Of a stretch of 64,000 nt of DNA, positions 42,973 to 47,839 are shown in pieces. The stretch spans positions 6,386,001 through 6,450,000 of the forward strand of contig NC_035790.1 in assembly GCF_001653235.2 (NCBI RefSeq). Reading direction: 5' to 3'. The notes below the pieces were generated by a model, which ran no database searches, was not told the DNA's origin, and saw only the letters and a list, made by a program, of their open reading frames with translations. A program made the position numbers and the translations under genes. Numbering within the stretch: the first letter of the stretch is position 1; each line of letters begins with the position of its first letter. This DNA comes from Pochonia chlamydosporia 170 (Eukaryota; Ascomycota; Sordariomycetes; Hypocreales; Clavicipitaceae).

Positions 42973-44622
42973 TTACTCGTCCCCTTTGTACTTCCACTCC
43001 GCGCGGCGATGCAAGTGGTAGTCTTTACTCTTGATGGACTGCCATATGCCATACAGGCCACCTATAGGCCACTTGCTCTTGAGTGATTGCCTTGTGCGCT
43101 TCCGCTCTTCTCGCGCAGCATCCACATCAATCTTGACCTTGTCGTGCACGCTAGGCAAGGTCGTGGCGTGATATTTCTCCCGCAGGCCCTCATACCAGTC
43201 CCTGTTCTTGTCGTACACCTTCCAAAACTCCTCCTGATTGTAGTATGTGTGTGCGTATAACCACTTTCGTCCGCCCAACTGAACGAGCTTATCCTCCAGG
43301 GCGCGGTTCTTGGTAACGAATTCCTCGTGGTCAGCGGGACCCCATCCCCATAGACCAATGTTCAGAATATCCTTTGGAGTCGTAGATCCGTCGGCGGCGG
43401 TCTCTGTCTCCCCCGTGTATGGGTGGAAAGTCGGTGGGAGGGTCTGCTTCAGCGGGCATAGCCAAAGCGGCCAGATGTCAAAGGTGTCGGTGGTGTAGTT
43501 GACAAACTCCTCTGCCTTGTCGTACGGCAGGCCAAGGTCTTGTACGACGAAGCGGGCCGACTCGCCGGAGGCATGCAGCGCACGATAGAGCATGCGCGTG
43601 TGCATAAAGTCGTCGAGGAACCAACGCGTGAAATTGTTAAAGGGCACGTATTTGAAATATGTCCAGCCTTGGGCGCCGACCCAGAATCCCGCACGGTCGT
43701 AGCGGAACAAGTATTCGGCCAGGGGGATGTAATCTACAACAGATGACGGACCAGACGTGGTGGCAGATGAAGGTGATGGGAGAGATTTGGTGCGATCTTT
43801 GACGTGTAAGTAGTACCAAGGGTCACGGGCACGGCTAAATGTTTGGACCTTGGTGTCCCCTGGTTTCTCGTCCGTCATGGTTCCTGTAATGACCACGCCA
43901 TGGTCCTTGGAGAAGAGAATACCGTCCACGTAGTCGTTTTCGGGGTTCTGTGTTTCCGCGCGCACCTTTTCTACAGCCTCCGCTACGCTGCCTGTGCGAT
44001 GATACGTCGTGCGTACATATTTCTTTGCCTCAATAAGTTGCAATTCCATGAGCGTGGTTGTTCCCAGTGTTCCCACTGATCCCGCGGCGCCCTGGAACAA
44101 GTCGGGCTTCTCTTCTTTCGAGGCTCGCACCACGTCGCCGTTCCCCAGCACCATTTCCACATAGTTGATCGTCTCGTTAAAGAAGCCATGCTTGAAGGAG
44201 CTGCTCTCGCCGGCTGTTCCGGCGTAGCCACCACCTGCAGTTATGCCCGGGAACTCCATCACCACGGGCGGAACAAGGCCATGGCGAAGTGTTGATTCGA
44301 CGAGCCTGTCCATGGGGACATTGGGCTCTACGAGGGCAGTTCGTTTCGATCGGTCGACACCAACAACGTTGGAGAGGGCACTGATGTCGACGATGCGTGC
44401 GCCTGGCCCGGGCCGGGGTCTAGTGCTGTTGGTTGAGCCATGGAAGATGCGGTAGGACTCTTTCTTGTCGAAGAAGCTCCGGACGGTGGAGGCTATCTTG
44501 GCCACAGCTTGTTTGTGGCGCTCCATGCTCGGCAATGGCTGCAATTCGAGTGTAACAAAGCTTAGACGGCTGCGCTGTGTAACGGGAAGCTCTGGACAAA
44601 GACTGGCGATGTTATTTTGCAT
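42973..44622 (-). CDS. Delta(24)-sterol reductase-like FAD-linked oxidoreductase
   Basis: Single exon. From ATG 44622 it has 549 residues; an in-frame extension to 44694 has no ATG, and a later ATG (MERHKQ) is also possible. It carries the FAD_binding_4 (VAO/PCMH) pattern: RIFHGSTNSTRP, then ISALSNVVGVDRSKRTALVEPNV, GLVPPVVMEFPGITAGGGYAGTAG and EMVLGNGDVV. The C-terminal half has WTYFKYVPFN and LGGRKWLYAHTYY, as in DHCR24/Diminuto-like proteins. Animals and plants use DHCR24 to reduce the side-chain double bond of sterols. Fungi make ergosterol by ERG4/ERG5 and do not need it, so the substrate here is uncertain. It faces ERG13 tail to tail across 548 bp. Many related fungal proteins exist, so the product may be a general sterol-like reductase. 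Confidence 0.87.
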   Translation of the reverse strand: MQNNIASLCPELPVTQRSRLSFVTLELQPLPSMERHKQAVAKIASTVRSFFDKKESYRIFHGSTNSTRPRPGPGARIVDISALSNVVGVDRSKRTALVEPNVPMDRLVESTLRHGLVPPVVMEFPGITAGGGYAGTAGESSSFKHGFFNETINYVEMVLGNGDVVRASKEEKPDLFQGAAGSVGTLGTTTLMELQLIEAKKYVRTTYHRTGSVAEAVEKVRAETQNPENDYVDGILFSKDHGVVITGTMTDEKPGDTKVQTFSRARDPWYYLHVKDRTKSLPSPSSATTSGPSSVVDYIPLAEYLFRYDRAGFWVGAQGWTYFKYVPFNNFTRWFLDDFMHTRMLYRALHASGESARFVVQDLGLPYDKAEEFVNYTTDTFDIWPLWLCPLKQTLPPTFHPYTGETETAADGSTTPKDILNIGLWGWGPADHEEFVTKNRALEDKLVQLGGRKWLYAHTYYNQEEFWKVYDKNRDWYEGLREKYHATTLPSVHDKVKIDVDAAREERKRTRQSLKSKWPIGGLYGIWQSIKSKDYHLHRRAEWKYKGDE

Positions 44623-44987: not shown

Positions 44988-44995
44988 AAAAAAAA
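44988..44995 (-). terminator. Pol III terminator of interrupted tRNA-Asn copy 1
   Basis: On the minus strand this is T8, starting two bases after the last tRNA base at 44997, a strong RNA polymerase III terminator. Confidence 0.85.
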
Positions 44996-44996
44996 T

Positions 44997-45126
44997 CTCC
45001 CCCGGAAAGGCTCGAACTTTCAACCTTGACAATTTATTAGCATCTAATTCCCCATGTTGCATGTTTTGGGTATATCTTACCTCCTGATTAACAGTCAGAC
45101 GCGCTAGCCAATTGCGCCACGGAGGA
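44997..45126 (-). tRNA. tRNA-Asn(GTT): tRNA-Asn(GTT), interrupted by a 56-bp insert (copy 1)
   Basis: Minus strand. Without the insert (45025-45080) it is a standard 74-nt asparagine tRNA identical to copy 3: acceptor stem TCCTCCG paired with CGGGGGA, D arm GCGCAATTGGCTAGCGC, anticodon GTT at 45092-45090 in a perfect 7-nt loop, variable loop AGGTT, T arm GAAAGTTCGAGCCTTTC and discriminator G. The insert sits between nt 46 and 47 of the tRNA (variable loop AG^GTT), not at the canonical site one base 3' of the anticodon. The B box lies in the 3' half and is intact. A T8 terminator follows. An equivalent interrupted gene lies inverted at 45991-46120. Confidence 0.93.
45025..45080 (-). other. Intron-like 56-bp insert in tRNA-Asn copy 1
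   Basis: It starts GTAAGA, contains GCTAAT 12 nt before the end as a near-consensus branch site, and ends TCAAG. Flanks read AG before and GT after. It differs from the insert in copy 2 at two positions (a G/A change early and C/T in the branch-like box). Its length and signals match ordinary mRNA introns of this genome. Confidence 0.9.
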
Positions 45127-45990: not shown

Positions 45991-46120
45991 TCCTCCGTGG
46001 CGCAATTGGCTAGCGCGTCTGACTGTTAATCAGGAGGTAAGATATACCCGAAACATGCAACATGGGGAATTAGATGCTAACAAATTGTCAAGGTTGAAAG
46101 TTCGAGCCTTTCCGGGGGAG
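45991..46120 (+). tRNA. tRNA-Asn(GTT): tRNA-Asn(GTT), interrupted by a 56-bp insert (copy 2)
   Basis: Plus strand, anticodon GTT at 46025-46027. Its 5' exon 45991-46036 (46 nt) and 3' exon 46093-46120 (28 nt) join to the exact 74-nt sequence of copy 3. All four stems pair. The A-box region and the B box (AGTTCGAGCC, 46099-46108) are intact, and a T9 run follows at 46128-46136. The insert lies in the variable loop and therefore cannot be the usual eukaryotic tRNA intron, which lies one base after the anticodon. The gene may be functional if the insert is removed, or a tRNA pseudogene if not. Confidence 0.93.
46037..46092 (+). other. Intron-like 56-bp insert in tRNA-Asn copy 2
   Basis: GTAAGA at the 5' edge, GCTAAC (46076-46081) with the branch adenine 12 nt from the 3' end, and CAAG at the 3' edge. 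These are full matches to the 5' splice site and branch-site consensus seen in the mRNA introns around it. AGGT is repeated at both edges, so the boundary is ambiguous by up to four bases, but the AG^GT placement gives a perfect GT-AG intron. Confidence 0.92.
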
Positions 46121-46718
46121 GTTGTAATTTTTTTTTGGTCGTGTGATTTTTTGCCGTGCTGTGAAGAGGCTGTTTGTTATCAGGGCAGTGAAAGATTGCA
46201 CTCCACTCAATGTGAACCTGGTTGCAAAACGGCCACCAAATGCAGGCACTTATAGTATAACTTGCGCATAAAATATGTCAGACAATAAAAAAGAACAATA
46301 CGCAGAATAATAGCAAGTAATTTATTCTAATAGTATTATACCTTTTGTCATTCTTTTTGTTATTAGGTCCTTGTTTTTGTATGTCGCCAGCAAACGGACG
46401 GGCACGTGGTGGATCTAGATTCACACATTCACAGCTGCTTTACCAGACCAATTCACTGATCCCATGCCAACTACATAAACCCGAGATAAACCCTTCGTAG
46501 CTTATGCTGGCTTTTCCCTTATTCATAATACAAGAATTGTCCTTTTGTCCCTTTCTTTACATGTACATGTTTGCTTCCCTCTTCCCTTTCTTCACACGAT
46601 TATCAACATCTCAACCCCAAAATTAGTGGAGCCTTTCTCCAATATTCTCCATTTTCACACTTTGAGCCTACCAAAATCGGCTATTTAGTAGCAAATTAGG
46701 TCTCCGTTTCGCAACAGT
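46121..46718. other. Intergenic between tRNA-Asn copies 2 and 3
   Basis: About 600 bp, AT-rich, no gene. It holds the T9 terminator of copy 2 at its left end. Confidence 0.6.
46128..46136 (+). terminator. Pol III terminator of interrupted tRNA-Asn copy 2
   Basis: T9 starting eight bases after the last tRNA base, a canonical Pol III stop. Confidence 0.85.
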
Positions 46719-46792
46719 TCCTCCGTGGCGCAATTGGCTAGCGCGTCTGACTGTTAATCAGGAGGTTGAAAGTTCGAGCCTTTCCGGGGGAG
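46719..46792 (+). tRNA. tRNA-Asn(GTT): tRNA-Asn(GTT), uninterrupted (copy 3)
   Basis: A complete 74-nt asparagine tRNA, anticodon GTT at 46753-46755, all stems paired (7, 4, 5 and 5 bp), variable loop AGGTT continuous. It serves as the intact reference for the two interrupted copies. T5 runs follow at 46805-46809 and 46815-46819. It has no intron at the canonical site either. Confidence 0.97.
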
Positions 46793-47839
46793 TAACATCG
46801 TCTATTTTTGACTCTTTTTGCTCTTGGCTTGTGAGTTCTGCCATTTGGCTTAATTTTTGCCAAAATACACAAATTTTGGGAGCGAATTGTGCGTATTTTT
46901 ACTATTTAGCGGTTAATTTAGTCGCTAGATTGCACAAACTAAACTATTACAGAGCCAGAATGTCCTTAACTCTGGTAATTATGCCAACATAAAAATGTTA
47001 ACGGGCGAATGTGCCATCATGTACCTAACGTAGAATAAGCATTAATAATAAGTAAGGCCAATGCCTTACAAAAATTACAGACTACGGCACAATATCGCAG
47101 CCCGGTTTGTATTGCGACAAGCGAGGTTGATAGCAGGGAAACATCACACGTACTGCTTAGTACAGAAGCCAGACAATCCCCACGGACAATCTCTTCTTTA
47201 CTAAAGTGTATCTTTATAAAAGTCAGATAAATTTAGCTTCTGTTTTGTGTGACGTATCTTACGTTTCTCGCGAACAGGATAAACGTCGCAGGTATCAATT
47301 GACCTGCCATCCTTCTTGGCTAATCATAAGTTCTCAATCATGCCACGCCCTACCTACTTCTGGCGCGCGTTTGAGCATCCCCTCGTAGTCAAGCCTAGAA
47401 ACAGAGTCAAGTTAGCAGACAAGAGGCTGGGATATTAAGAATAACATCAGATTTATAACCTGCCACTGCAAACGCTTCTCAATATAGCCAGTGCTAATTT
47501 CCTAGGTACTTCAGCAAATTGCTCTAGTAACACCATACATTATAACAACGAAAGAAAGGCGCAAATATCTTCTACTGTATTACATGCACAAGATTATAAT
47601 ATTTAAACTTTATAGCTACCTCTTATTCCATCGTCTGGTTATGACTAGCGTTAGGGGTGCTCGCTGTTGTCTGCTTGCTTGACTGACTGCAAGTGGTCAG
47701 ACCTATTCACCTGGATGTATCCGTGAGCGTTCACGTGGCCAAATACAAATTCAACCGGCGACATGATTAGTCCTCGACGTTCCATTTGATTCCAGACATC
47801 CTTCCATGTATCGACCAGTACCCTTACAAGCCTGGTTGC
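46793..47839. other. AT-rich intergenic region
   Basis: 1 kb, AT-rich, no supported gene. It includes the T5 stops of tRNA-Asn copy 3 and the 3' flank of the minus-strand hydrolase gene. Confidence 0.55.

Follow-up and report, generated by a model that had tools for sequence, protein, structure and literature searches.

Two of the three tRNA-Asn(GUU) genes in the window, the whole 64,000-nucleotide stretch of DNA analysed here, are interrupted by a 56-nt insert that is probably a U2-type spliceosomal intron, gained in a Pol III-transcribed tRNA gene and removed by the spliceosome, with splicing deduced from the anatomy of the genes. That anatomy is best read as spliceosomal because excision of the insert restores an uninterrupted tRNA exactly, the insert carries splice signals and lacks a bulge-helix-bulge (BHB) core, and GT-AG inserts are also found in the U6 and U3 genes of the same genome. 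The AAG acceptor, the low rank of copy A, the isolation of the case and the non-cloverleaf folds count against it. The coordinates of the features are collected in Table 1.

Table 1. Positions of the three tRNA-Asn(GUU) genes, their inserts, branch sites and terminators in the window, and of the two U6 genes elsewhere in the genome.
Feature	Position	Strand	Remarks
tRNA-Asn(GUU) copy A, interrupted, 130 nt	45126-44997	-	Rfam RF00005 48.3 bits; exons identical to copy C
tRNA-Asn(GUU) copy B, interrupted, 130 nt	45991-46120	+	RF00005 48.3 bits; exons 74/74 identical to copy C
tRNA-Asn(GUU) copy C, uninterrupted, 74 nt	46719-46792	+	RF00005 62.6 bits; ARAGORN Asn gtt
Copy A insert, 56 nt	45025-45080	-	54/56 bases as in copy B; score 16.6
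Copy B insert, spliceosomal-type intron GTAAGA...AAG	46037-46092	+	Removal gives copy C exactly; score 18.5
Predicted branch site GCTAAT, copy A	45036-45041	-	Branch A at 45037
Predicted branch site GCTAAC, copy B	46076-46081	+	Branch A at 46080; best match
T8 Pol III terminator, copy A	44988-44995	-	
T9 Pol III terminator, copy B	46128-46136	+	
T5 Pol III terminator, copy C	46805-46809	+	
U6 gene 1	L035 1501-1669 (G000 C8:755833-756001)	-	68-nt or 71-nt GT-AG insert
U6 gene 2	L036 1501-1675 (G000 C5:2556156-2556330)	-	68-nt or 71-nt GT-AG insert

All three genes lie within 1.8 kb, and a DNA search of the whole genome (44.2 Mb, 49 contigs) with the 130 nt of copy B, at E up to 10 and with very common words skipped, returned no further tRNA-Asn gene. 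The second interrupted gene, copy A on the minus strand, is absent from the sequence-only reading that had described copy B. The tRNA bodies of copies A, B and C are identical at 74/74 positions, and the similarity of their flanks is small and limited to short stretches; the trailers read GTTGTAATTT in copy B, ATTTTTTTT in copy A and TAACATCG in copy C, and the leaders end in ...AACAAT in copy B and ...GCAATCG in copy A. The DHCR24-like protein encoded beside the cluster is 91% identical to that of Metarhizium brunneum and 86% to that of M. rileyi; the nearest protein relatives of the window are those of Metarhizium and, judged by these proteins, the host is a Metarhizium-like clavicipitaceous fungus. 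Copy A is located ∼0.4-0.5 kb upstream of the DHCR24-like gene (42973-44619, minus strand) and on the same strand, and for this reason Pol II read-through is conceivable for copy A and not for copy B. A default run of ARAGORN misses both copies A and B, and with introns allowed the program calls copy B a tRNA-Asn and puts an intron of 40 nt into its anticodon loop, which is a false call.

Excision of the insert from copy B yields copy C exactly, as the sequence-only reading had claimed for the neighbouring 74-nt tRNA, and the same is true of copy A; the exon joint after removal is AATCAGGAG / GTTGAAAG. When the cloverleaf is counted by hand, the insert falls in the variable loop between tRNA positions 45 and 46. 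The splice motifs are also as that reading had described them, i.e. AG/GTAAGA at the 5′ end, GCTAAC with the branch A 12 nt before the final base of the intron, and AAG/G at the 3′ end, and the T9 terminator reported for copy B is present. A 4-nt direct repeat, AGGT, at both ends of the insert creates five equivalent placements that slide from 43/44 to 47/48, one of which gives GT...AG. Over their 130 positions copies A and B show two differences, both inside the insert: one in its middle and one in the final letter of the branch site (GCTAAC in copy B, GCTAAT in copy A). An RCTRAY branch site is thus found in both copies, at a distance of 12 nt from the end that is inside the range of 6-36 nt given in the available excerpt of PMC5832005. 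The 5′ site GTAAGA scores 7.1, where the leave-one-out scores of 20 mapped introns of the genome range from 2.8 to 9.6, and the length of the insert (56 nt) equals that of the shortest of these introns. The acceptor is AAG and not YAG; AAG also ends 1 of the 20 mapped introns.

These reference introns were taken from five protein genes (actin, 4; two beta-tubulin-like genes, 4 and 6; Sec13, 3; HMG-CoA synthase, 3) by spliced alignment of homologous proteins to the DNA, in which GT and AG were the only signals used and no RNA data entered; a sixth aligned gene, DHCR24, gave no introns. The likeness to mRNA introns of the window that had been pointed out earlier is borne out by the 6 introns in Sec13 and HMG-CoA synthase, which have these signals in common with the insert, and the same signals are seen in the 14 introns of actin and the two beta-tubulin-like genes outside that window set. 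In a position model built from the 20 introns, with leave-one-out scores as the yardstick, the copy B insert exceeds 9/20 mapped introns and the copy A insert only 2/20. Among 40,000 random sequences of the form GT plus 52 bases plus AG, 61 match or exceed the score of copy B and 252 that of copy A. For natural GT...AG 56-mers of the window, taken from both strands (n = 452), 2 reach the score of copy B, itself included, and 6 reach that of copy A, with copies A and B included. Finally, when random 56-mers of the window are placed at the insert spot (400,000 trials), GT-AG ends together with a good 5′ site and a branch site arise at a rate of 9.25e-5, a figure that counts once since copies A and B are not independent. 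The insert is real and stands well above chance.

The rate above is higher if an insertion obtains its GT and AG free of cost, and the alternative to be weighed first builds on this: a chance insertion with a 4-bp AGGT target duplication, after which copy C is left as the working gene and copies A and B are silent or give RNA of no use. We regard this as unlikely, though it has several facts on its side, as AGGT flanks the insert on both sides, an uninterrupted copy C exists, the 3′ site is AAG and copy A ranks low. Even with GT and AG supplied by the duplicated AGGT target, however, the combination of a good 5′ site and a branch site arises in only 0.0025 of such insertions. The exons of copies A, B and C, moreover, are identical at 74/74 positions, and long T-runs are retained (T8 and T9), such that both interrupted copies possess intact tRNA exons and a terminator; a run of T4 or longer within 40 nt is found at 27/30 tRNA loci examined, including that of copy C. 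A decaying insertion with broken stems, named in the sequence-only reading as one of the findings that would speak against an intron, is not what this genome contains, and a tRNA pseudogene was rejected for copies A and B, neither of which has an exon difference in 74 nt. A TATA box was dropped as a test of activity, as TATA occurs at -45 to -20 in just 4/30 tRNA loci, a set of 30 that includes copy C's. Gene dosage provides a further, circumstantial argument. Asn makes up 4.44% of 5,859 residues in 14 open reading frames of the window (stop-to-stop frames, some with non-coding ends), corresponding to 1.48% per gene if three genes work and to 4.44% if one does, against 1.16% per gene for Asp (5.82%, 5 genes) and 0.59% per gene for Cys (1.18%, 2 genes), all tRNA gene counts being lower bounds. 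The dosage therefore fits three working Asn genes, while copy C by itself could supply the cell.

Canonical introns of eukaryotic nuclear tRNAs lie between positions 37 and 38, one base 3′ of the anticodon, and are removed by the tRNA splicing endonuclease. Anticodon-loop introns of this ordinary kind exist in other tRNA genes of the genome, and the endonuclease pathway thus appears to be in use here. The tRNA-Asn insert resembles these introns in that its removal yields a normal tRNA, but differs from them in its position at 45/46, away from the canonical insertion point, in its GT-AG ends and branch site, and in the absence of a BHB core. The site is indeed outside the usual endonuclease geometry, as the sequence-only reading had it. 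In the available excerpt of PMC3978253, ectopic tRNA introns are described for archaea, the variable loop included, and for the nucleomorph of Guillardia theta, where many have no defined BHB motif; because of the latter, the missing BHB does not by itself exclude the endonuclease. An ectopic intron of this type, cut by the tRNA splicing endonuclease and sealed by a ligase as in archaea or the red alga Cyanidioschyzon, is nevertheless very unlikely for the tRNA-Asn genes. Over 20 combinations of placement and cut, the four pairs of a 4-bp BHB core form in none, with three pairs at best in 2/20, and the insert has no stable fold, as it folds no more stably than its shuffled versions (z +0.70 for copy B and +0.57 for copy A). 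The splice signals, on this view, would have to be a coincidence. So far as the excerpts of PMC3978253 and PMC8450103 go, the introns of archaea, Cyanidioschyzon merolae and Guillardia theta share with the tRNA-Asn insert a site off the anticodon loop, whereas those of archaea and Cyanidioschyzon are tied to BHB processing; by comparison of descriptions in these same excerpts, GT-branch-AG signals are not described for any of the three groups. Of the two options left by the sequence-only reading, the spliceosomal anatomy therefore stands, with signals held in common with the mapped introns and the U6 inserts, and the unusual endonuclease substrate is weakened by the lack of a 4-bp BHB core and of a stable fold.

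It is hardly credible that copies A and B contain no intron at all and that their product is a tRNA-like RNA, stable and with a variable arm of 61 nt; folding can be constrained to a cloverleaf from which the insert loops out, but no long arm helix forms and the splice signals are left unexplained. The minimum-free-energy folds of copies A, B and C are not cloverleaves, and the forced cloverleaf is less stable by 5.3 kcal/mol for copy B and by 3.2 kcal/mol for the intronless copy C. A short mobile intron (introner-like element) that is still spreading, with the tRNA as one target of many, has next to no likelihood and, unless diverged copies exist, is refuted here: the AGGT repeat at the ends and the GT-AG form of the insert would suit it, but the insert is unstructured and the whole-genome search with copy B, at E up to 10 and with very common words skipped, matches nothing outside the three tRNA-Asn genes.

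Spliceosomal introns in small structured RNAs have precedents in this genome. A U6 family search, in which 47/2,512 candidates were scored, located two U6 snRNA genes, both of which match over the full model with a long GT-AG insert. The 68-nt insert (AG/GT...AG/C cut) has GTATTT, ACTAAC and CAG and scores 18.8, which beats 9/20 mapped introns, and the 71-nt insert has GTTGGT, GCTTAC and TAG and scores 9.7, below all 20. A B-box-like motif is present inside both inserts (GTTCGAATC and ATTCGAATCC). Through the U6 inserts this genome offers its own precedent for introns in genes read by Pol III, a precedent that rests mainly on one U6 gene, since the second insert scores below all 20 mapped introns; in this second gene the 5′ site (GTTGGT) is poor and the 5′ end is unusual for U6, and the gene may have been damaged. 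A 66-nt GT-AG intron is also present in the only U3 gene found; it scores 19.9, higher than 13/20 mapped introns. Genes for RNase P RNA and for SRP RNA were also located in the genome. The U6 introns of Schizosaccharomyces pombe and other fungi are like the tRNA-Asn insert in being spliceosomal-type introns in a small Pol III RNA, and in fission yeast the spliceosome handles the intron-bearing U6, a Pol III transcript. U6 is itself a part of the spliceosome, however, and its intron is thought to originate by reverse splicing close to the U6 catalytic bases, whereas tRNAs are served by a splicing enzyme of their own and the tRNA-Asn insert sits in the variable loop, with the A box on one side and the B box on the other. 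According to the excerpt of PMC5832005 available, a GT-RCTRAC-AG intron is found in 138/310 fungal U3 snoRNA genes, with a YAG acceptor in all except one case; such introns, of which the U3 gene of this genome has one, are like the tRNA-Asn insert in form and in lying in a small structured RNA, and differ in that the host is a snoRNA and the tRNA-Asn acceptor is AAG.

On the preferred reading, a nuclear tRNA-Asn gene would have acquired the spliceosomal intron at an AG/GT site of its variable loop, and the intron would now occupy two of the three genes found. To our knowledge tRNA-Asn genes are usually without introns, and for this reason we infer that the direction was gain in copies A and B rather than loss from copy C. 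Reverse splicing may have placed the intron in the tRNA, or a short insertion may have duplicated AGGT as it entered; the data do not distinguish these two origins. Transcription of copy A or B by Pol III would be directed by the internal A and B boxes in the two exons and would end at the T-run, and the usual end-processing enzymes would work on this transcript. The spliceosome would then pair with AG/GUAAG and with the GCUAAC or GCUAAU branch site in the Pol III transcript, and the 56 nt would leave as a lariat. The expected product, the same tRNA-Asn that copy C gives, would presumably be used by the cell. Because the mature products are identical, reads joined across nt 40-60 cannot separate spliced copies A and B from copy C.

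The case is an isolated one. With 18 joined tRNA queries of this genome, 36 places were matched and all were whole, i.e. no other interrupted tRNA was found among them. In a tRNA family search, 63/1,274 candidates were scored and gave at least 60 matches, an incomplete inventory in which Phe, Tyr, Trp, His and Pro tRNAs were not seen among the matches listed. A pattern of branch site, AG and T-loop gave 30 matches vs 54 for the reversed-pattern control, and ARAGORN identified ordinary tRNA-Glu, tRNA-Gln and tRNA-Val at 12 of these 30 loci and no tRNA at 18; owing to the T-loop of tRNA-Asn, this pattern is unable to match tRNA-Asn. A CTGAC version gave 111 matches vs 237 for the control, with copy C and several known tRNA loci among the matches listed. 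Pattern scans of viral contigs (two) gave 0 matches, and 1 match in genome contigs, a tRNA-Asn-like fragment in a Flavobacterium MAG, was rejected, being a tRNA neither by ARAGORN nor by Rfam. Searches of open-licence literature listed no report of a nuclear tRNA gene with a spliceosomal intron. Separately, an Arg-like tRNA family with inserts of ∼24-29 nt in the anticodon loop was observed (L053, L058, L059, L060, L061, L062, L065, L067 and L072); its anticodon-loop letters vary, ARAGORN labels it mostly Ser(act) where ACG or ACA is read by hand, and it is possibly drifting or SINE-like. Four contigs (L083, L100, L101 and L102) share a near-identical stretch, CTAACGATTTAGT.TTTAGTATAACCTCAGTATAACCTCAG..., which is probably a repeat element.

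The two interrupted genes would also illustrate a blind spot in tRNA detection, as default ARAGORN overlooks both and its intron mode misplaces the insert of copy B, and more such genes could be unseen elsewhere; in the excerpt of PMC8450103 available, the search of tRNAscan-SE 2.0 for non-canonical introns is described for archaeal candidates. Among small Pol III RNAs, U6 is known to have spliceosomal introns, and its proximity to the spliceosome offers an explanation for their gain. We place somewhat better than an even chance on the wider proposition that a nuclear tRNA precursor made by Pol III has its intron removed by the spliceosome, in place of the tRNA endonuclease or alongside it, with two of the three tRNA-Asn genes dependent on it and the supply of this tRNA coupled to the spliceosome. 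If true, this case of a tRNA, an RNA with a dedicated splicing enzyme, would show that the spliceosome can act on Pol III transcripts other than U6 and that such transcripts can acquire introns, and these genes would offer a natural test of where tRNA precursors and the spliceosome meet.
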